Assembly (NCBI GenBank): GCA_027577595.1 | Contig: JANBRJ010000054.1 | Location: 46,663-110,662, forward strand | Direction: 5' to 3' | Origin: Coemansia sp. RSA 487 | Lineage: Eukaryota > Kickxellomycota > Kickxellomycetes > Kickxellales > Kickxellaceae | Length of the DNA stretch: 64,000 nucleotides | Part shown: positions 5,724-63,406 of the stretch, in pieces | Position numbering within the stretch: the first letter of the stretch is position 1 | How the letters are laid out: each line of letters opens with the position of its first letter | Made by a program: the position numbers and the translations under genes | Notes under the pieces: generated by a model | What the model was told of the DNA's origin: nothing | The model's input: the letters and a program-made list of their open reading frames with translations, nothing else | Database searches by the model: none

Positions 5724-6078
5724 ATGATAGCAGTCTGTATTTTTATCAGTATTTGTGCACGACCAAGCATAAAAGGTAAAACGTTGAAAAAGGTTTATTT
5801 ACTAAATAAAAGAGCCAAAGGTTAAACACAAACTCGTCAAAAAAACCAAGGGCAACTGGTGGTTTCTTTTCTCTGCTTGAACGCGTGCTTGTGATTCGCG
5901 CTAAAATGGTACGCGCATACTTTTTGAAAGTTCATATACCACCCCAGTTTTCTTTTTCAAATTTATTGCCTTTTTGCTTCTTTTTCTGTAATTAGTCATA
6001 TTTCTTTAGCTTCTTGGCTTGTCTCTGAAGTCATCCTCTTTTTGTTTCCGGTTACTCCTTTTTCTTTACTTGCACAAG
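5724..6078. promoter_or_regulatory. Divergent promoter region
   Basis: A 355-bp spacer between two divergently transcribed genes, the OB-fold gene (minus) and MED15 (plus). It is AT-rich with long T tracts close to the MED15 start. Both promoters must lie here. No specific factor site is assigned. Confidence 0.5.
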
Positions 6079-6747
6079 ATGAGCGGCCAGCCTAATTTGG
6101 GTGCCCTAGGCGGCGGCGATTGGCGAGCAACCATTAGCGAACAAGCGCGCAGACAGAATCTAATTAACAACATGACGCCTATTCTTCAAGGACTGAGCGA
6201 GCAACATAGTGGCCTCGTCATGAACATTGCATACCAATGCGAGAATCAGGCATTTACTACTGCAAAGTCCAGCCAGGAGTACCTAATGCATCTCAACAAC
6301 CAAATCATGGAAATCTCGCAAAGGGTCAAATCCATCGCAGCCAACCCAGTATCTGGTGCGTCCGCTGGCACTAACGCAGCAGGACAGAGCCCTGCTGCAG
6401 CGAATCCGGCTGTGGCACTTATGCAAAGCATTCAATTTAATCAGCAGACAACTGCGCCAACGCAGACACAGCTTCAGACACACGGCCAAGCGCAGCCACA
6501 GCAGGCTCAGCCACATATGCAACCGCAGCCACAAGTATCAGTACAAGGGACCCCAGCTGGAGCACAGCCTTCTACGGATTCTATTATTCCGCAAATACGC
6601 AATATTATCCAGAATCCCGACAACTATTCTATTCAGGATATTGGTATGGCGATACAGTTCTTGCAGGCACAGTCCAGTTCTGCTCCTAATAAGCAAGTAT
6701 TTAACGAAACAATCAGGAAGCTTTATATTGCGGCCCAGAAGAAGCAA

Positions 6748-6778
<31 letters not shown>

Positions 6779-8967
6779 CGCAACAGCAGCAACAATTACA
6801 GCAGCAGCAGCAACAAGCCAGCCAGCTACAGCTCCAGGCAGCATTAAGGCAGCGACAGCAACAGCAACAGCAGCAACAGCAGCAACAGCAGCAGCAACAG
6901 CAGCACCAGCAGCACCAGCAGCAACATACTCCTCAGCAGTTGACGGCGTTACAGAATTCCCAGTCGGGAGCCAATCCCAATGCTAATAGCCTGGCACAGT
7001 CGCTACAGCTACAGCAGCAACAGCAGCTGCTACATATGCGTTTACAGGGGCAACAGAATCAGTCCCAGCAACAACCCCTACAAGACAACCCGCAGCTTGC
7101 AAATGCATTTGCAAACGCAGCACAGCAACAACAGCAACAACAGCAGCAGAAGCAACAACAGCAGCAACAACAACAACAGCAAACTGGTGGATTTTCTCAG
7201 CCTATTGGCGCCGGAAATACGACAGTTGCGCTGACAGGATCTGGACAAGCCTCCGCCGAAGACACCCAGAAATGGATGCAAATTCTTCGCACATTCACCC
7301 GCCCGTTTAAGCTCAACGAAATACAGCTCGATCTCAACTTCTTTCACGCCTATAGATTGTACAGTCAGTTCAAGACTCGCGGAGATACAGTGTATGAGGC
7401 CAGCATGGGCAAGTTCATCCATGAACTTGTTGCCGCCATTCAGAATGAGGTCGGTAGGAATATAGACAAGGAGATACTTCAGCTTGCAGCCCAAGAGTCC
7501 CAAGCGGCAGCAGGTGCTGTTGGGCAAGCCGCTAACCAACTGGGTCCAACGCCACTGTCTACACAGGCGCTGAACGCACGTGCCACTCCTATGATGAGCA
7601 GTGCTGCTATCCCAGATGCTGTCCTCGCTAACATGGCAGGGCCTAGTGCGCAAGTTGGACTGCAGGCTGCTTTTTCGGGGTCAACAATGACCAATCTCCC
7701 GGCAAACACCGCAACGCAGCCAGCAGCCAGCAGCGTCGCTACAGTAGCCAACGTGGTGGGCAAAAAGCAAAGCACAGGTAAAAGCTCGTCTTCTGTTGCA
7801 GGCCCAAAGTCAAAGAAGAAGTCACAGTCGCCACGCACTTCGACAAAGACACGCAAGGAATCGCCAAAAGCACCTACAGCAGCGCAAGCACAATCTGGCG
7901 CCTCTTTACCTGGAGGTAGCAGCTCTGTCAGTGCTGCTACGTCTATAGTTGCTGCAGCAAGCTTGCCTGTATCGCAAGGAACTGCAACAATGAACTCTGC
8001 TGCTACTGCTGGTAACAATGCTCCGCCAATGAGCCGCTCGGATTCTATTTCGGCAGAGACAGCAACGAAGGCTGTGACCGAGATAATAGCCTCCATCGAT
8101 GGCGAGGGAATAAAGAAATCCCCTCGGATATCGCTTTCGGAACAAGACAAAAAGATGGTGAAGGGCCACCTTTCGTATATCGAGCCGGTTTTGGAAACTG
8201 TGAACAAACTTTTGCCTGTCATCTTCATGTGTATGAAAAGCGCAGACCCGATCAAAAAGATATACACCATTCAGATCATTGTGAAGGAGCAGCTGCGACT
8301 TCTAAATGAGGACCAGTACATCGTCACGCCTGCAAATACGCTCGGCTACTATGAGCTTCTTCGCAAGTTTGTTGGGATCGCAAAGGATTGGGGTAACATG
8401 CAGCAGCAAGAGCACTTGCAAGCCCTCGGCACACAAGCAGGAACAAGAGCTCCTGCTACGGCTACTGGAGAAAATGCAAAAATATCTGCGGTCCAGGAGA
8501 CACCTCTTACCAACCTTCATCCGGGCGCGATGACCAACGACCCAGCGCTTGAGAACTTTCAAAAGGCGGTCAAGCATCCTCTTGACCCTGTAAGCCTGAA
8601 GCTCCCTGTGGCAAAGAAACGCGCAGCCAACAAGTCCTCGGCAGCAACCAGCACTCAACCTATTGCTGCAACCAGTTCGCCATTTAATGCACCTGCGATA
8701 GGTGGCCAGCTGACGCAGCAGCAACGGAATCAGCGTCTACAGCAACTACAGCAGCTTCAGCAGCACTATGCTCAGTCGCAAACACAGACGTCTGCGCCCT
8801 TTGCGCCCGCACCTCCCGTGCTCCCGCCCAGCATCAGTAAGGAAGACTTTGACAAGCTATCATTGGAGATGCGCACGGCAATACTGAAAAACCAGCAGGC
8901 GGCGCTGATCAGACAGCATACCATTGGCATCAGTGCTGCTAGTCCTGTGTCTGCGCACATATCGCAG

Positions 8968-8999
<32 letters not shown>

Positions 9000-9336
9000 G
9001 CAACAGCAACAACAACAGCAACAACAGCAACAGCAACAACAGCAACAACAACAAGGGCCAGGGGTAAACCCGTTGTTGCTTGCAACAATCCAGGGATCTG
9101 AAACATCAGGCGTCAATTCCCAGTCTGCGGAGGAGCAGCGACTCAAGCTGCTTGAGCAAGACAAATGGAACAACCCCTTGGAATATCTGATGTGCGTTCT
9201 CGGCAAGTTCTCCAAGGGCGCAGAAAAAGCTGGGGTCGAGCAAACGCCGATTCTTCAACAGGCATTCTGGCCGATTGCACGCAAGTCCATGATGTCGAGC
9301 GGCTGGGGAGTCGTTGCTCCTGACGCCGTGTTGTAA
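6079..9336 (+). CDS. MED15: Mediator complex subunit 15 (GAL11-like)
   Basis: Tail-module subunit of Mediator, the coactivator that links activators to RNA polymerase II. The predicted protein has 1085 residues. Residues ~13-83 are a KIX-type activator-binding domain (DWRATISEQARRQNLINNM, then LVMNIAYQCENQAFTTA and YL..LN.QIMEIS). A second conserved helical block lies around 393-455 (KWMQILRTFTRPFKLNEIQLDL), and a conserved C-terminal block is near 1025-1085 (KWNNPLEYLMCVLGKFSKG). Between them are very long glutamine-rich stretches encoded by mixed CAG/CAA codons. The start at MSGQPNLG places KIX at the N-terminus as in the family; an in-frame ATG at 6019 would only add a hydrophobic leader from UTR-like T-rich DNA and is rejected. 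Confidence 0.9.
6745..6930 (+). repeat. CAG/CAA polyglutamine tract cluster 1 in MED15
   Basis: Near-continuous CAG and CAA codons with a few Pro, Leu, Arg and His interruptions. The synonymous mixture argues for selection on the glutamine tract rather than a pure triplet expansion. Confidence 0.9.
7123..7182 (+). repeat. CAG/CAA polyglutamine tract 2 in MED15
   Basis: Twenty codons of CAG and CAA, interrupted by a single AAG (Lys), just upstream of the second conserved MED15 block. Confidence 0.9.
8965..9054 (+). repeat. Thirty-codon uninterrupted polyglutamine tract in MED15
   Basis: Ninety bases read as thirty consecutive glutamines with CAG and CAA codons interspersed. It is the longest pure run in the window and likely to be length-variable between strains. 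Confidence 0.95.
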
Positions 9337-14910: not shown

Positions 14911-15422
14911 CAGCGGGTATCTTTCAAATATAGCAATAGGTTTTGGATGCAATAGCCAGGGTTTAAATACACAAACGATTTTTCTTGCAAGCCAGATAAA
15001 AAAAACCTGAATAAAGAGTATATATCTCGTATTTATATTACATCGTTGTTACCGAACAGCATTCTCCACAGGCAAGAGAATGGTTTCAGCGAGATCCTTG
15101 ACAAAAGGGAAATGTCGCAATAGCCATCTAAAATGGCTATATTCGACTACAGCTGCTAAACAGAAGGGGGCATGCAGATGAAAAGAAGCCAGACCCACTC
15201 TTCCTTGTCTTATATACAAGCCAGTGACATGAACTATCATCTATTGGCCCTTTATTGCGCCACCACATCCTGTGACTGTAGAGAAGAGTTCCTCGTAAAT
15301 TGAGAACAGCCTAGAAAAATTTGCACCATCTGTTACACAATTTGGCTTTCTTGTCATCCACCACCTGCCCAAAAAGGAAGGCTTAATGTTTATAGCTCAA
15401 TATTTTTTGCCAGTACGTTGGA
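14911..15422. other. Spacer between permease and transposase remnant
   Basis: AT-rich DNA holding the permease promoter at its left. The right part, from about 15250, probably contains the decayed 5' end of the Tc1-like element. No clear terminal inverted repeat could be identified by eye. Confidence 0.4.
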
Positions 15423-16110
15423 ATGATTCTAAAAGATGAAGGCATCGTTTCTAGGATAGCAAGGAAGAAGCCATTTATTACTGATAAACAGGCAAAGGAG
15501 CGACTGGAGTTTGCCAGAGACCATATCAATTGGGATATCGAACAGTGGAAGAAGCTTATATTCACTGATGAAAGTGCATTCCAGCTCAATTTTGATCAGT
15601 CAAGAACTCTTGTAAAGCGATCTAAAAACAGTGAACTTGATAGATGTAATGCGGTTGGTGCCTTCAAACCAGGTGGTCGTTCTCTTAACGTGTGGGATGG
15701 TATCTTTTACAACGAACACACCGACTTTGTTGTTTTCAGAGAAAAGTCGGTGACTAGTGAGGTATTAAAAGAAGCATATAGGTCTCAATTGGTGCCTTCT
15801 ATGAAAGACAACAAACTCAAAACACTTGTAGAAGACAACGTTGATACACACATCAAACTCTTCCTGGGAGTATCGTCAGTTTCAACATATTAAAAAAACA
15901 TGGCCAGTGCATTCTCCTGACCTCAATCCGATTGAAAATTTGTGGGGAATGTTGAAGCACATATTTGCCAAGCAATTAGCAAGATACTCAATACAAAATG
16001 ACAAGGAAACACTTTGCAAACTCTGGAATAACATCGAAATAAAGTATATCAACAAACTAATCAAAGGCATGCCTAAGCGCATAAAGATGGTCATCGACAA
16101 GAAAGACTAA
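15423..16110 (+). mobile_element. Broken Tc1/mariner-type transposase
   Basis: A frame beginning near ILKDEGIVSRIARKKPFITD reads through the Tc1 catalytic block, with the first DDE aspartate in LIFTDESAFQLN and the second at EDNVDTH. It then runs into a stop at 15891-15893. The homologous C-terminal part (WPVHSPDLNPIENLWGMLKHIF, carrying the third catalytic residue) continues in another frame to 16110, so a frameshift lies near 15850-15870. The N-terminal DNA-binding domain is missing or too decayed to read. It is a dead copy and lies directly upstream of the Fanzor gene. Confidence 0.85.
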
Positions 16111-16950
16111 ACAGAAAAAATTGGCTAACCACTGTACTATCGCCCATATGCATGCCCACCAGTTTTTCTAGCCAGCACACTATCACCACCAGATACTAGC
16201 TCAGTAACTGTGTTCTGTAGAGGTTGCTTTCTTTATCGCGCCTTTTAACAAATAAAGTTGTGGTGTTTGTGGTTATACTGCGTAGACGCTGCCAGTGTAA
16301 CTCTTGCATGAAGTGTTCTGTAGATTATGTTTAATAGCTTACAAAATAAACAGCAATATAGAAATATCAAATAAACAAAACAATTGTAGAAGACGAGAAC
16401 ATATAAAAGATGCTGGTGACAACAAAACCAGATAGCAAGCAAACATCGGTTAACAGGAAGAGAAGGAAGCATTGGTGTCGGAAGAGAGAAAATAAGATGA
16501 GTACAACAAAGGAGAGAAAACGAACAGTGCTGGTAACAGTTAAAAGCGAGAAAGAGAAAGAAGTGTTGAAAAGGAAAGTGTTTATTGAGGGCATTTGTGC
16601 CCCGCCATGCTGTATCCACTTCTCCCCTGATGTGTGTGCCGCGAAAAGCAAAATACAATCAGAGAGAAAAAGAAATATATTTACAAAAAATAATCGAGAA
16701 ATAAAAAAAAGGATGGAAGAGCTCGCCTTCCAATCACAAGAAAAAAGCAATCACAAATGATTCTGTCAACACCCTAGCGGATGGCGGCAAAGAAAAAAGT
16801 TTCCCCCTACGAAATAGCTACAAAGAGTAGAGAAAAGTTATTTTTTTTTTCGCGTTTTTCTTTTTCCTTGCATTGCGGTTACTTTTTTCTTATTTATTAA
16901 ACCTACAAAAGCTCAACCTCGTCTTTTCCTTTTTTTCGCGCACATCTCCG
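16111..16950. other. Spacer between transposase remnant and Fanzor gene
   Basis: A-rich then T-rich DNA. The last 150 bp have T tracts typical of promoters in this genome and probably drive the Fanzor gene. A lysine-rich open frame (16410-16760) is low-complexity and is not called. A transposon end or target-site duplication might lie here, but I could not identify one. Confidence 0.45.
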
Positions 16951-19192
16951 ATGGTATGCAACGACGAGGTGTGTCCTCAAAGTTCCTTTGCAGGCCATCA
17001 GTTGGCGCCGCAAGTACAGACCGCCACTTCGTAAGCTGGTCAAAACAGCAAACTACAACACTCGCCATTCTTATAACTTCTCTCGCTGGATATTCGTATA
17101 CGAGCTTCGCGAGGACATTAATTTCAAGCTCGACCGCTATGTCTGTGTTCCCTTTTTCAAGGAGGTGATCTTAAAGATCAACGGCGGGAAAACTGCAGCT
17201 GTCGGCAAAACACGGAAGAAGAAACCCAAAGCAGAAACAGAAGCGAAAGCCAAAGGCGCCAAGGTCACTGAAATTGACAAACCAGACACAACAGAATTTC
17301 GAACCCTCATAGCAAAACATTGGGATACATATGCACAGGCGTCGCATATCAAGCAACAAAAGCAGCCATACATGGCTCAAGTTGCTGGGTACGAAGCCCA
17401 AAAGATACATACTGCGTTCCTCGTATCTGTCAAGAACAACCTCGGAAATCGCCTACGTGGAGCTGTCAACATGCTCTGTAGGTCTAAAACCGAAGCACTT
17501 GCCAAGCGGATCGAACTCAAGGCTGCCAGTGCATCAGCTGATACTATCCGAGATACCCTAAGAGCTGAGGTGTGGGGCCCAGCAGACAAGGCCAAGAAAT
17601 GTGTTGAGCGTGGCAAGATCATCGAAGCTGAGCTGGACGCACACATTTACGAACGGGTCAAGGAACTTCAATCGGTGCTCTACATCTATGAAAACGATGC
17701 GCCTAGCGAAAAGGGTCTCTACTATGACATCAAGTGTGACCCTATCAAGCACATCAAAACCTTCTTTCTTCTGGCTCGGTTCTTTCAGCAAAACAAGCCC
17801 CGCAGCTTCCAGTGCATGCCGCTTCGCACACAGTGGATCCCATGCCATGTCCACATTGACAAGGCTATCCTTTGTCAGTGGTTCCTTGGTGGCATCAAGA
17901 AGGGACAGAAGCTTACGAATGACCTTTGGGGTGAGGTCCTTGACATAAACTGCCGGGCGATCAAGAGCAAACAGGGTGGCAAGGTGTTTGAAGGCTCAGT
18001 TCAGACAGATGGTGTGTCGATCTCTATTTTCAAGAAGTGCAAGGCCAAGAAGAAACCCAACAACAGCACAGACCAGATCAGCGACATCAAGACACCTGAC
18101 ACTGCCAGTACTGCCACGACCAAGACGCCAAAGACTAAGAAGGGCAAGAGCAAAGATGAATTTGAGTTTGAGTACATTGAATCAATCAACCAAGACAAGC
18201 TATGTGCAATGGAAGGCAGTTGTGTGCTGATCGACCCAGGCAGGAGGGACCTTCTGTTCTGCATGCATGAGTACAGCTCCATTGGGAATCCGTGGCTATT
18301 CCGATTTACGCGCAATCACAAGGCCAAGCTGACTCGCTCTACCAAACTCCGCAGGATTCTCGAAGCAGCCAAGAAGATGTATCCTGACAATGCCATCATT
18401 GAGGCAGAGCAGCGTCTGGCTGAGGTTTCATGCACCACTGTTGATCCTGATCAGTTCAAGAGGTTCATTGAAGTCCAGGCTGAGGTATGGCCCCTTCTGA
18501 GCAAGTTCTATTCCTGCACGCAGACAAACAGCACAACGAACAAGAAACCGCTTCATCGGCAGCTGCGTCTGGCAGCCTACCTTAACAGCCAAAGGGCAGA
18601 TCATACCCTTGCCAACCTTATCCATGAACAGTTTGGTCCTGATTCTGTCCTGGTTCTTGGAAATTGGTCTGCTGGCATGTGCAAGTACCATGAGCCCATC
18701 CGGGGTGTAGGTATGCGTAGGATGCTGCGAAAGCATGGGTTCAAAGTGTACCTGTTGGACGAATTCCGCACCTCGACTTTCTGCCCTGGTTGTTGCGAAG
18801 ACAGACTTGTGCATCCTGAAGAGCTGGTTCCAAACCCAAGGCCCTACTCAAAAGAGAGTAGGCATGAGTATGTTATTTGCCATGGACTCCTAATGTGTCA
18901 AAACAAAAAATGTGTGGAGTACGTGGCAGATAACATGAAGCCTGCTAACCACCTCGGGAAAGAGCCTGCTGCTCGGTTTTGGAACAGGGATCTTGCTGCT
19001 GTGTTGAATTTCAGGCATATTCTCCATAGTCTGCGCCAAATACACAAGAGGCCTGAGCGCTTTAGGCGTGGTGCCACTCTTCCGCCAGCAAAGAAGACCA
19101 AGAAACCCACGAAGGCCGCCAAGAGGTCTGCCAGTGGTTCTACGCAGCCCAGAAAGAAGTTCTGCTCAGCGACATCGCAGCAGCAGCCTTAA
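16951..19192 (+). CDS. Fanzor (TnpB-like, RNA-guided RuvC nuclease)
   Basis: The long frame (open from 16901, stop at 19190) encodes a Fanzor protein, the eukaryotic relative of TnpB/Cas12. With the start proposed below it has 733 residues. RuvC-I is IDPGRRDLLFC (D415). At the usual RuvC-II position the sequence is VLGNWS, without the expected Glu; instead LLDEFRTSTFCPGC supplies a candidate catalytic Glu (E591). RuvC-III is FWNRDLAAVLNFR (D667). A zinc finger uses C598/C601 and C636/C641. All the expected catalytic elements are present and uninterrupted. Lys/Arg-rich stretches near residues 60-80 and in the last 50 residues look like nuclear-localisation signals. The long frame has no ATG. 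I propose ATG at 16951, a 40-nt intron (16954-16993, GTATGC to CTTTGCAG) and continuation at 16994 as MAISWRRKY. The start is uncertain; the family call is strong. Confidence 0.9.
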
Positions 19193-19210
19193 CATCAACC
19201 ATATTTTTCC

Positions 19211-19320
19211 CTGGGTGCTATAGCACTCCAACTGCCCAGAATCGTTCTGGGCAGAAAGTAATGCCAGATACAAGGCTTCAGTTGCCACACGTTAGTGGTA
19301 ATCGGAGGTCGTTGGCAGAA
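19211..19320 (+). ncRNA. Candidate Fanzor guide-RNA (omega-RNA) scaffold
   Basis: It starts 19 bases after the Fanzor stop and holds three adjacent stem-loops: GTGC(TATA)GCAC at 19215-19226; a perfect 10-bp stem CTGCCCAGAA / TTCTGGGCAG with loop TCG at 19232-19254; and TTGCCAC / GTGGTAA (one G-U pair) around loop ACGTTA at 19282-19301. TGCCA at 19262 and TGGCA at 19313 could close the last hairpin into a larger arm. Fanzor and TnpB guide RNAs are encoded at and just beyond the 3' end of the protein gene, so position and structure fit. The alternative is simple 3'-end structure between the convergent Fanzor and CDT2 genes. No transcription evidence is available here. Confidence 0.4.
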
Positions 19321-19343
19321 TGGCGACATTATACAAGGCAGCG

Positions 19344-21011
19344 CTAGAGAGGTGGTTCGCGACAGATCCTGGAGAATCCCCAACAGTACTTTCTCATGGG
19401 ATCTGCTTTTCCTTCCTCGGCAAGCTTTGGGTCTAGGTCCCACACACGCAACGTCCCGTCATCGCCACTAGTGGCAAGTTGCACACGGTCCTTGCCAGGA
19501 TACCACGCAACACAGCCGACCTCTTTGCCATGCCCCTCAAGCACAGCCCTGGTCTTTTTGCTGCAGAGCCCATACCGATCCAGCTCCCATATAACAGCGT
19601 TGCCGCTTGCCGAGCCAGCTGCTAGATAGCTACCACAGGGGCTCATAGATGTGCCAATGTTAAAGCTGTTGCATCGGAACTCTGGCGCACCAAGCTGTGA
19701 GACTGGCTGTCCCAGGGCCAATGCGTTGTGGATATAAACAGCATTGTCGTTGCATGCGGCATAGAGCCGGGTCCCGTCAGGGTCTAGCGACAGCGATGCT
19801 ATTCCTCGCGAGCGCTTCGTGGTCGAAACAAGAAGTGATGAAGCGATGGGCATAGGAAGCGCCGTGGACCGCGTTGGTGCTGTCATCCTCATGTCCCAGA
19901 ACTTTATGACCTCGTTGGTGGAGCCAGCAGATGCAATTACGTTTGCGTCATGACGGAGATGCTTGATGGCTGTAACGCTTCCAGCTATAACGTTGTGTTT
20001 GCCGCGTGCCGGCTTCTTCGAGCTCCGAAGGTCGTGGTGAGCGCGGGCGATTGTATTAACAGGGCGGTAGCTGTGTTCCCCAGAGGCGGCGGTTTTGTTG
20101 CACCGCACATCCCATACCATGATCGATCCGTCGCGGGATGCTGTTGAGAAACAGTGCTGGCTGTTGTGCTGCCAGCTCACCGAACGCACGGTCTGCGTGT
20201 GTCCGTTGAACAAGCCTAGCATCTGCTGGCGCTCGACGTCCCAGAGCCTGCATGTCTCGTCTGCCGACGCCGTCACAATCTGATCGTCGCAAGGACTCCA
20301 CTCAAAGTCAAAAATCGAGTTGTCATGGGCCTTCCATTGGATCATCGGCTGCAGTCCTTCCAGATCCTGCTGAGATGAGGTATCCTCTTGCTCTCTGAAT
20401 GTATCGAATATACTAACATTCCCTCCTTCATCTACTAGCGAGAGCTTCCCACACGCCTTTGCATTGTTGCTGTATTTGCACGCAAGGGGTAGAGCGACTA
20501 GCTGAGGCTCGTCTGTAGACTGTAGTCTAAATGTGCGTAAATTCGGGGACACCAGCGACTCCAGTCTGCTTATTGTGGACACTGTGCACGGCGCGATGAC
20601 CTGATGGCGTCTTTGGCGTATTGCTGTGATCATACTACACTGTCCAAATGCCGGACAGGTAGGCGGAGCCGGAGCGATAGAGTGCTTGATACGACCAAGA
20701 TGCTGTTCTTGCGGTTTGCCTAAAATAAGCACTCTTTTGGGCGCGATACCAGCACATTCTGTCCGTACACGTCTCGGAGACCCGATACAAATGCGTTTGG
20801 CCTGCTTTCCATCGACACAGGGGCTGATATTCTCGCTGTTTGTATGATCTTTGCTCTGTGCGGTGTGTTCAGATTGCCGTTGGCGCTTACTGCGTCGCTG
20901 AGCAGTGTTGAGTGCATCGAATAGGGTGGTTTGTCGAACTGACGATTGCACTCTGGAATCGGTAGCAGCACTCGCATTGTTTATGCGCTGTGTAATGTCT
21001 GAAAGTGCCAT
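19344..21011 (-). CDS. CDT2: CDT2/DTL-like WD40 substrate receptor of CRL4
   Basis: A 555-residue WD40 protein that should act as the CRL4-Cdt2 ubiquitin-ligase receptor, destroying Cdt1 and related targets during S phase. After a basic disordered N-terminus (~150 residues), about seven WD repeats follow. They include KAHDNSIFDFEWSPCDDQIV.ASADETCRLWD, GHTQTVRSVSW with FSTASRDGSIMVWDVR, and the Cdt2-typical long insertion before SVTAIKHLRHD..VIASAGSTNEVIKFWDMR. The C-terminal repeat ends at ATSGDDGTLRVWD. The N-terminus carries RQTTLFDAL, similar to the start of a PCNA-interacting (PIP) box but without the aromatic pair, and a basic stretch (QRRSKRQRQ). It is convergent with the Fanzor gene. 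WD40 paralogues can be confused, but the block order fits CDT2 best. Confidence 0.78.
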   Translation of the reverse strand: MALSDITQRINNASAATDSRVQSSVRQTTLFDALNTAQRRSKRQRQSEHTAQSKDHTNSENISPCVDGKQAKRICIGSPRRVRTECAGIAPKRVLILGKPQEQHLGRIKHSIAPAPPTCPAFGQCSMITAIRQRRHQVIAPCTVSTISRLESLVSPNLRTFRLQSTDEPQLVALPLACKYSNNAKACGKLSLVDEGGNVSIFDTFREQEDTSSQQDLEGLQPMIQWKAHDNSIFDFEWSPCDDQIVTASADETCRLWDVERQQMLGLFNGHTQTVRSVSWQHNSQHCFSTASRDGSIMVWDVRCNKTAASGEHSYRPVNTIARAHHDLRSSKKPARGKHNVIAGSVTAIKHLRHDANVIASAGSTNEVIKFWDMRMTAPTRSTALPMPIASSLLVSTTKRSRGIASLSLDPDGTRLYAACNDNAVYIHNALALGQPVSQLGAPEFRCNSFNIGTSMSPCGSYLAAGSASGNAVIWELDRYGLCSKKTRAVLEGHGKEVGCVAWYPGKDRVQLATSGDDGTLRVWDLDPKLAEEGKADPMRKYCWGFSRICREPPL

Positions 21012-59038: not shown

Positions 59039-60683
59039 TCAAGCGTCATAGGTGGATGCATGGACGTTTCCGCCGCGTCCGGTCCAGTTGGTGTGGATAT
59101 AGCTTCCAGGGTTGCTTTCCAGCTCATAGGTGTGTGCACCAAAGTAATCGCGCTGGGCCTGGAGCATGTTTGCCGGAAGACGAGCGGTGCGGTAGCCATC
59201 ATAGAAGGACAGCGCGGTGCTGAGTGCAGGGACCGGGATACCAAGCAACATCGCCGTGCTAGTGGCGCTGCGCCATCCAGGCTGAGCAGTGGCGGTAGCC
59301 TTCTGGAAGAAGGGGTCGAAAAGTAGGCTCTCTAGGCTCTTGTTGCTGTCGAATGCATCCTTGATGTCGCCCAGGAAGGCAGAGCGGATGATGCAGCCGC
59401 CACGCCACATCAATGCGATTGACCCGTAGTTGAGGTTCCAATTGTAGTTGCTTGAGGCCTCGCGCATCAGCATGAAGCCCTGCGCATATGAGATGATCTT
59501 GGATGCGTACATGGCCTGCTCGAGGTCCTTGATCAGCTTGGCCTTGTCCCCAGTGTATTTGCTATCGGTTGGACCAGCAAGGATCTTGGATGCGCGCACG
59601 CGCTCGTCCTTGATGGACGACAGGCAGCGTGCAAACACGGCTTCGCCGATGAGGGTGACCGGCATTCCATAGTCGAGTGCAGCAATTGCAGTCCATTTTC
59701 CAGTTCCCTTCTGGCCGGCGGAATCGCGGATCTTTTCAAGCAGATGCTGGCCATCGGTGTCCTTGTAACGCAGGATATCGGTGGTGATCTCGATCAGGAA
59801 TGAGTTCAGAACACCCTTGTTCCACTCTGAAAATATGTCGCCTTGTTCGTCGTCGTTGAGGCCAACACCATCGCGGAGGATCTGATAGACTTCAGAGATG
59901 AGCTGCATGTCGCCGTACTCGATGCCATTGTGGACCATCTTGACAAAGTGGCCGGCACCCCCGTCACCGACCCAGTCGCAGCACGGCGCACCGTCAGGTG
60001 CCTTGGCAGCGATCGCCTGGAAGATGGGCTTGAGATGAGGCCATGCCTCGGGGTTGCCGCCAGGCATAAGGCTAGGGCCATAGCGGGCACCTTCCTCACC
60101 ACCTGAGACACCACAGCCGACAAACAGAATCTTCTTGGCGGTCAGTTCCTCGTAACGACGCTGGGTATCAGCATAGTTCGAGTTACCACCATCGATGATA
60201 ATATCGCCCTCCTCGAGGTGGGGCAGCAGAGTCTCAATAAACTTGTCCACGGCAGATCCGGCCTTGACGAGGAGCATCATCTTGCGAGGGCGCTTCAGCT
60301 TGGCAACAAACTCCTCGACGGAGTGTGCGCCGACGATCTGTGTGCCCTTGGCCTCGTTCTCGAGGAAATGGTCGACCTTTGAGACAGTGCGGTTGAATGC
60401 ACAGACTTTGAATCCATGATCGTTGATGTTGAGGATCAGGTTCTGGCCCTACATTTAGGAGAAACAGGATCAAACAGCACATTCGTGCCGTTTTTGTCGT
60501 TGCTGGCATAAAGTATTAGATGCATTGTATCGTTATTCACACTAAAAAAACACAGAATATAACCGATCACCAGGGAAGATAGAGGGCAATACACCAGCTA
60601 GCTTATCGCAAAGAGACACTTACCATGACTGCAAGGCCGATAAGACCAAAGTCGGCAACAGCAGTGGTGGCAGATGAAGACAT
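59039..60683 (-). CDS. GND1: 6-phosphogluconate dehydrogenase, two exons
   Basis: Oxidative pentose-phosphate enzyme: 6-phosphogluconate + NADP to ribulose 5-phosphate + CO2 + NADPH. Read as join(59039..60448, 60624..60683) on the complement, 489 residues, the usual fungal length. Exon 1 encodes exactly MSSSATTAVADFGLIGLAVM. The 175-nt phase-0 intron (GTAAGT...GTAG) splits the NADP-binding loop GLAVM-GQNL. Other hallmarks are IIIDGGNSNYADTQRR, FVGCGVSGGEEGARYGPSLMPGG and KMVHNGIEYGDMQL, with the catalytic Lys in the last. LNYGSIALMWRGGCIIRS is in the C-terminal domain. It ends with the short tail GNVHASTYDA, and TAL1 is the next gene upstream. Confidence 0.95.
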
Positions 60684-62860: not shown

Positions 62861-63406
62861 ACTCTTTGCTAGATGTAGACATGCTGGAAGAAGACTGTCA
62901 CTCGAATAAGGAGCCAGAGAACATTGTTGTACACATGCGCATGTTGATGGATGTTTCACTGAGAAAGCCTCGCCGTTTCTGCTGCCAAAAAGAGAAAAGC
63001 CAATGGCAACGAGATCAGAATTAGTGGGGGTGGCATACGAACAGAGCACTTTCTGGCCTACATCTCAAATGCAATCGATGCACTGGATGCAAAGAACATG
63101 AAAGGCCACTATCTTGTGACGGACAATGCTCCAATACACACGCCATTAGCTATTCGAGACCTAATAGAAAACATGCAATACAAGTGTCTATATCTGCCTT
63201 CATACTCACCCTTTCTAAATCCCATTGAGGAGCTTTGGTTCAAAGTAAAATCGGGTGTTCGCAGAACAGCGCTTACAGCAGACGACAGACTCAGTGATAG
63301 AATATGTGAGGCAGTCAACAAAGTGACAGCATCAGACTGCCAAGACTACATCAGACATTTTATGACATTCTTCTCTCGCTGCAAAGATGGAGAAACAAAT
63401 CTTTAA
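62861..63406 (+). mobile_element. Decayed IS630/Tc1-like DDE transposase remnant
   Basis: The 3' half of a DDE transposase. An upstream piece reads VSLRKP and then shifts frame near 62970 to VSAAKKRKANGNE, GGGIRTEHFLAYISNAIDAL and MKGHYLVTDNAPIHTP (second catalytic Asp). It continues with CLYLPSYSPFLNPIEELWFKVK (third catalytic Glu) to a stop at 63406. The N-terminal half, with the DNA-binding region and the first Asp, is missing or unreadable. This family differs from the remnant at 15.4 kb (YSPFLNPIEELW versus SPDLNPIENLW). Confidence 0.8.

Follow-up and report, generated by a model that had tools for sequence, protein, structure and literature searches.

The plus-strand open frame at 16901-19192 of the 64-kb window (the whole stretch of DNA that was analysed) reads as an intact Fanzor1 gene with a predicted product of 733 residues, a member of a family that is already known. 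The gene is intact at the level of the protein, and its product is very probably a nuclear RNA-guided DNA endonuclease that would take its RNA from the 3' flank of its own gene, a function proposed from homology and from the complete active site. What is new at this locus is the lack of the FRI insertion, an added basic C-terminal tail and a candidate two-stem guide RNA. The coordinates of the features are collected in Table 1, and residues are numbered on the spliced gene model.

Table 1. Features of the Fanzor1 locus and its flanks, in window coordinates.
Feature	Position	Strand	Basis
Dead Tc1/mariner-type transposase relic	15435..16110	+	HTH_Tnp_Tc3_2 match begins at profile position 42; DDE_3 match, in a different frame, just under cut-off
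Proposed Fanzor1 start codon (exon 1 is the ATG alone)	16951..16953	+	Predicted; in frame only with the intron
Proposed 40-nt intron, GTATGC...TTGCAG	16954..16993	+	Predicted from frame and splice dinucleotides
Fanzor1 coding exon 2, including stop; 733 aa counting the start codon	16994..19192	+	PDB homology
RuvC-I catalytic D415, DPG motif	18233..18235	+	Alignment; DPG is 415-417
RuvC-II alternative glutamate E591	18761..18763	+	Six residues before zinc-finger C598; position is that of Ealt in PMC10711439
C4 zinc finger C598, C601, C636, C641	18782..18913	+	Alignment
RuvC-III catalytic D667	18989..18991	+	Aligned with SpuFz1 chain residue 1000
Basic C-terminal tail, residues 695-733 (39 aa)	19073..19189	+	C-terminal to the part matching the two solved relatives
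Candidate guide-RNA (omega RNA) scaffold; guide from about 19255	19193..19256	+	Position, two-stem fold, published layouts
Stem-loop 1: 7 bp, one bulge, 4-nt loop	19212..19230	+	Folding
Stem-loop 2: perfect 10-bp stem, 3-nt loop	19232..19254	+	Folding

Family assignment and active site

The relationship of the predicted protein to proteins of known structure was examined using phmmer against the PDB, which at E-values up to 1 gave three rows: PpFz1 of Parasitella parasitica (E 1.9e-100, 340.8 bits), SpuFz1 of Spizellomyces (E 2.7e-38, 135.3 bits) and one chance row (E 0.92). Two stretches matched PpFz1, one at residues 6-518 of the 734-codon open reading frame and the other at 523-694, with an identity of 38% over these segments compared to 30% over the segment matched in SpuFz1, and GtFz1, the third solved Fanzor1, was absent from the matches. 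Because the homology is direct and extends to two solved Fanzor1 proteins, the family call is strong. No TnpB or Fanzor2 chain, the presence of which in the searched copy is unconfirmed, was among the matches at E up to 1, and as far as this search tells the protein would be of type 1 rather than type 2. The first-pass annotation had called a Fanzor nuclease in a fungal genome, and both parts of that call are borne out; the fungal host agrees with a Med15_fungi domain in the vicinity (46.7 bits, where the cut-off is 25.2), which belongs to a Med15-like protein encoded at 6019-9336 (+) and rich in very long runs of glutamine.

Other searches with the Fanzor1 protein were less informative. Pfam gave a single weak match under the cut-off, the NCBIfam and PHROGs profiles gave none, and one profile search was circular, its alignment having held the PDB sequences that it then found, and was excluded as evidence. 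AlphaFold2, run on the single sequence without an alignment, gave a mean pLDDT of 36.9, too low to serve as a model of the REC2 kinked helix pair and the RuvC fold expected of a Fanzor1. Relatives were sought in viral contigs (3 pattern matches, and 46 matches in a second search) and in prokaryotic genomes (110 pattern matches), and none of these matches was confirmed. Among the literature matches listed, the titles and abstract openings contained no domesticated Fanzor and no Fanzor from Kickxellomycotina, Coemansia or Zoopagomycota.

The alignment of the three sequences revealed that the predicted catalytic triad D415-E591-D667, the TDG motif of the WED domain at 339-341 and all four cysteines of the zinc finger are invariant between the Fanzor1 described here, PpFz1 and SpuFz1. 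The RuvC-I aspartate in DPGRRD (DNA 18233), the zinc finger C598/C601/C636/C641 and the RuvC-III aspartate in NRDLAAVLNF (DNA 18989) had already been proposed from the letters alone and are upheld by this alignment, while the glutamate E591 had not been named. The SpuFz1 chain residue that is aligned with D667 is residue 1000 as counted on the alignment, and with an offset of 394 we equate it with D606, a residue mutated in PMC11423790.

The DPG motif together with the rearranged glutamate Ealt is described in PMC10711439 as a fingerprint of Fanzors that is common to a small clade of cyanobacterial TnpBs. Both are present here, the DPG at 415-417 and E591 just ahead of the zinc finger, and since the pair is common to Fanzor2 and some bacterial TnpBs it is by itself no proof of type 1; according to the papers cited, Fanzor2 and bacterial TnpB likewise have a RuvC domain with a zinc finger and cut under RNA guidance. 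The Fanzor1 motif of PMC3627910, D-X(125,275)-[TS][TS]-X-X-[C4 zinc finger]-X(5,50)-RD, is found as D415, 178 residues, TS, the cysteines from C598 onwards and RD at 666-667, with a gap of 24 residues between C641 and RD. The loose pattern can be satisfied from nine further aspartates too, so it is the alignment and not the pattern that picks out D415.

When the protein was compared with PpFz1 (PDB 9cf0-9cf3), one of the three Fanzor1s whose structures are described in PMC11423790, the motifs DPGRRD, DEFRTS and WNRD were found to be common to both. The main difference is in the FRI, an insertion of approximately 100 residues in the RuvC domain of PpFz1 that binds cyclophilin and that the authors of PMC11423790 report finding in Parasitella and Rhizopus only. 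Opposite chain residues 992-1095 of PpFz1 the present protein has 4 residues, and the FRI is absent. The missing stretch would be residues 598-701 of PpFz1, including P614 and P616 that contact cyclophilin, if the tag offset of 394, which was counted for SpuFz1 and carried over to PpFz1 by inference, applies. The same offset and the chain numbering suggest that approximately 130 N-terminal residues of PpFz1 are also missing, whereas the 39-residue basic tail is extra relative to PpFz1. A lysine-rich stretch at about 67-95 is longer than in PpFz1 in a region where SpuFz1 is unaligned, and a second at about 351-392 is longer than in both relatives. SpuFz1 (Spizellomyces punctatus; PDB 8gkh, 9ceu-9cez; PMC10432273) aligns across the triad and the zinc finger, and its RuvC-I motif reads DPN in place of the DPG found here.

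Basic tails resembling nuclear-localisation signals had also been described in the first-pass annotation, and basic stretches are present at the C-terminus, where residues 695-733 contain 10 K/R and no D/E, and in the internal linkers, but not at the N-terminus. Patterns of the form K-[KR]-X-[KR] are found at residues 77, 348, 383 and 701, and the bipartite basic pattern that was tried gave no match in the protein. The PDB chains of PpFz1 and SpuFz1 both stop 5 residues past the matched region.

A candidate guide RNA 3' of the gene

The region directly 3' of the open reading frame, which is also where the RNA of SpuFz1 lies (PMC10432273), folds into two strong stem-loops in tandem. The first stem starts 19 nt past the Fanzor1 stop codon, and stem-loop 1 is present in the minimum-energy folds of 19193-19340, 19193-19275, 19205-19260 and 19150-19275. 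The fold of 19205-19260 has an energy of -25.4 kcal/mol and a z-score of -4.87, which was equalled by 0 of 200 shuffles; the z-score of 19193-19340 was -4.03 and other folds gave -3.20, -3.73 and -2.60, the last for the wider stretch 19150-19275, all of these values being flattering because the stretches were picked after the sequence had been seen. A lower energy than that of 19205-19260 was obtained for 18 of the 9136 windows of 56 nt, all of which have a GC content of at least 0.607 compared to 0.50. In the 64-kb window, stem-loop 2 alone has a perfect stem of at least 10 bp that closes a loop of 3-8 nt. Its 10-bp hairpin has no second copy there (1 match when 3 mismatches are allowed), and searching with half of the hairpin gave 9 near-matches where 7.67 are expected by chance. 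A scan against Rfam at gathering scores and a tRNA scan each gave 0 matches.

The arrangement is consistent with the published two-stem Fanzor1 scaffolds. In PMC11423790, stem-loop SL1 has 7 bp in three Fanzor1s and the RNAs of SpuFz1 and PpFz1 have one more stem ahead of the guide; the PpFz1 RNA is 75 nt long, and its second stem has 4 bp compared to 10 bp here. The SpuFz1 RNA lies between the stop codon and the 3' repeat and has a guide of 14-15 nt (PMC10432273), and a guide of that length added to the scaffold proposed here would give an RNA of close to 80 nt. The match is one of layout and not of sequence, and the two stem-loops are put forward as a candidate only.

It is quite possible, if not the reading that we favour, that the stem-loops are instead a transcription 3'-end signal, or a fold of the 3' UTR of the convergent WD40 gene. 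The 10-bp stem is 89 nt from the end of the WD40 open reading frame at 19344 on the opposite strand, and the stem is symmetrical and so able to form on either strand; the hairpin may as well be a 3'-end signal of one convergent gene as of the other. The distance from the stop codon, the number of stems and the length of stem 1 nevertheless agree with the scaffolds described in PMC11423790 and PMC10432273. A second perfect stem of 10 bp closing a loop of 3-8 nt is absent from the window and hence from its other gene ends, which also argues against a 3'-end signal.

Genomic setting and mobility

Genes of the Fanzor type originally ride in transposons, where cutting at the empty site would help the element to be retained. 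The uninterrupted frame beside a dead transposase had been taken in the first-pass annotation to suggest recent mobility or selection for function. The neighbour is indeed the relic of a Tc1/mariner-type transposase, with its pieces in different frames and its N-terminal part unrecognisable. Recent mobility is not supported, as neither terminal inverted repeats (TIR) nor a target-site duplication (TSD) was found, and there is no second copy within the 64-kb window. None of the 12 inverted-repeat pairs found encloses the Fanzor1 gene. When the flanking intervals were compared in three pairings, shuffled sequence did as well as the best inverted match in 199, 102 and 85 of 300 cases, and as well as the direct match in 41, 201 and 143 of 300. 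A TIR-plus-TSD search around the gene was run in six settings and returned 0 or 1 hits per setting, no different from the shuffles, and no pair of TIRs with a TA target-site duplication enclosing the gene rose above shuffles, in a search that diverged or very short ends would escape.

The transposase relic and Fanzor1 differ in composition (GC content of 0.39 and 0.50 respectively) and in codon use. The codon score of Fanzor1 is 0.040, which is within the host range, as 6 of the 18 host genes in the window score lower, and 2 of its 7 blocks of 100 codons have a score below zero; the two transposase pieces, at -0.074 and -0.056, are outside the range of the 18 host genes. The names of the host genes in this comparison are presumed, save those borne out by Pfam or PDB matches. 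The Fanzor1 gene and the mariner transposase were considered as one element and this was rejected, since no terminal repeats were found to enclose both, composition and codon use differ and the window contains no second copy. The two may be neighbours by accident. Fanzor1 genes are found within the Tc1/mariner elements PGv-1, PUl-1 and HMa-1 (PMC3627910), and as in these a mariner-type transposase is upstream on the same strand; in contrast to them no TIR or TA duplication was found around both genes, and the transposase is dead, AT-richer and different in codon use.

Three further observations were made on this DNA. A 13-nt inverted pair (15168-15180 and 16145-16157, 92% complementary) flanks the transposase relic and may be what is left of the relic's ends, although matches as strong as this between the intervals concerned are at chance level. 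A lysine-rich open reading frame of 116 residues at 16410-16760 (+), between the relic and Fanzor1, is probably due to chance in AT-rich DNA; it was considered as a lost N-terminal exon, corresponding to the extra N-terminus of PpFz1, and rejected, having matched no PDB Fanzor at E up to 10 and no Pfam family. A weak similarity to the first relic led to a second transposase remnant at 63098-63406 (+) (TDNAPIHTPL...FLNPIEELW), which we take to be Tc1/IS630-like.

It is doubtful that Fanzor1 belongs to a recently inserted and still mobile element that depends on a transposase encoded elsewhere in the genome and acting in trans. Its open reading frame is intact, and multi-copy Fanzor1 elements with inverted repeats are known, SpuFz1 being carried by an element of this kind, which has inverted repeats of 30 nt and for which 19 of the 42 loci in one genome have full-length genes (PMC10432273). 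No such repeats were found around the gene described here, where no flanking inverted-repeat pair exceeded the shuffles and the TIR-plus-TSD hits were as in shuffles, and its codon use is not foreign.

Domestication by the host is likewise unlikely. In that case the transposon ends would be gone and the fungus would keep the gene, for example to direct cuts into foreign or selfish DNA, which the failure to find TIR or TSD, the single copy in the 64-kb window, the host-like codon use and the intact catalytic residues would all fit. Against this, short or diverged ends would escape the search, and the copy count covers the 64-kb window. A more specific form of host takeover has a slightly smaller chance still: a single-copy Fanzor1 that has shed its transposon ends, acquired a spliced start as well as codon use like that of the host, and kept its triad and 3' scaffold, with a guide fixed by the neighbouring sequence. 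Selection for function, the other half of the earlier suggestion, is plausible from the open frame and the host-like codon use.

Proposed start codon and role

The interval 16951-19192 had been annotated as one uninterrupted frame. The open frame is present, running from 16901 to the stop codon at 19190-19192 with no internal stop or frameshift, but a straight read from 16951 meets 47 stops. The ATG at 16951 and the Fanzor1 open reading frame lie in different frames and come into register only if the 40-nt GT..AG intron is removed, whereas the first ATG inside the unspliced frame is codon 128. Removal of the intron gives a protein that begins M-AISWRRKYRPPL..., starting just ahead of the tryptophan that is aligned with PpFz1. 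This spliced-start model is likely but unproven. The 60 nt 5' of the proposed ATG are 68% pyrimidine, a level reached by 18 of the 1051 plus-strand ATGs in the window. Of 14 other gene starts examined, however, just 2 attain that level, in a sample where at least one, the CK1 open reading frame, probably does not start at its true start, and the pyrimidine-rich leader therefore gives weak support for a start at 16951.

One other gene in the window, that of 6-phosphogluconate dehydrogenase (6PGD), also appears to be interrupted by an intron near the beginning of its coding region. This intron (60449-60623, minus strand, GTAAGT...TGTAG) was predicted from the sequence directly after an ATG codon (...GLAVM / GQNLIL), and at 175 nt, the single other intron measured, it is considerably longer than the 40 nt proposed for Fanzor1, whose shortness counts against the spliced model. 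A young pseudogene, in which the start codon has been lost and the frame has yet to decay, is improbable: without the proposed splice there is indeed no ATG ahead of codon 128, but the ATG-GT..AG solution recovers an N-terminal region conserved with PpFz1, 6PGD has a similarly placed intron, and the frame is undamaged.

The locus is thus best read as the gene of a complete Fanzor1 nuclease. The protein would bind a short RNA made from its own 3' flank, consisting of the candidate scaffold and the guide that follows it, the REC/WED half would serve to locate the target-adjacent motif and to open the DNA, and the RuvC site formed by the predicted triad would then cut both strands. In its original setting the gene would have been carried by a transposon, the ends of which are unrecognisable here. 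As a relative of PpFz1 that lacks the FRI and has a candidate guide RNA, the protein offers a possible comparison for the role of the cyclophilin-binding insertion. Should the fungus prove to retain the gene outside any mobile element, this would also bear on the role of Fanzors in eukaryotes.
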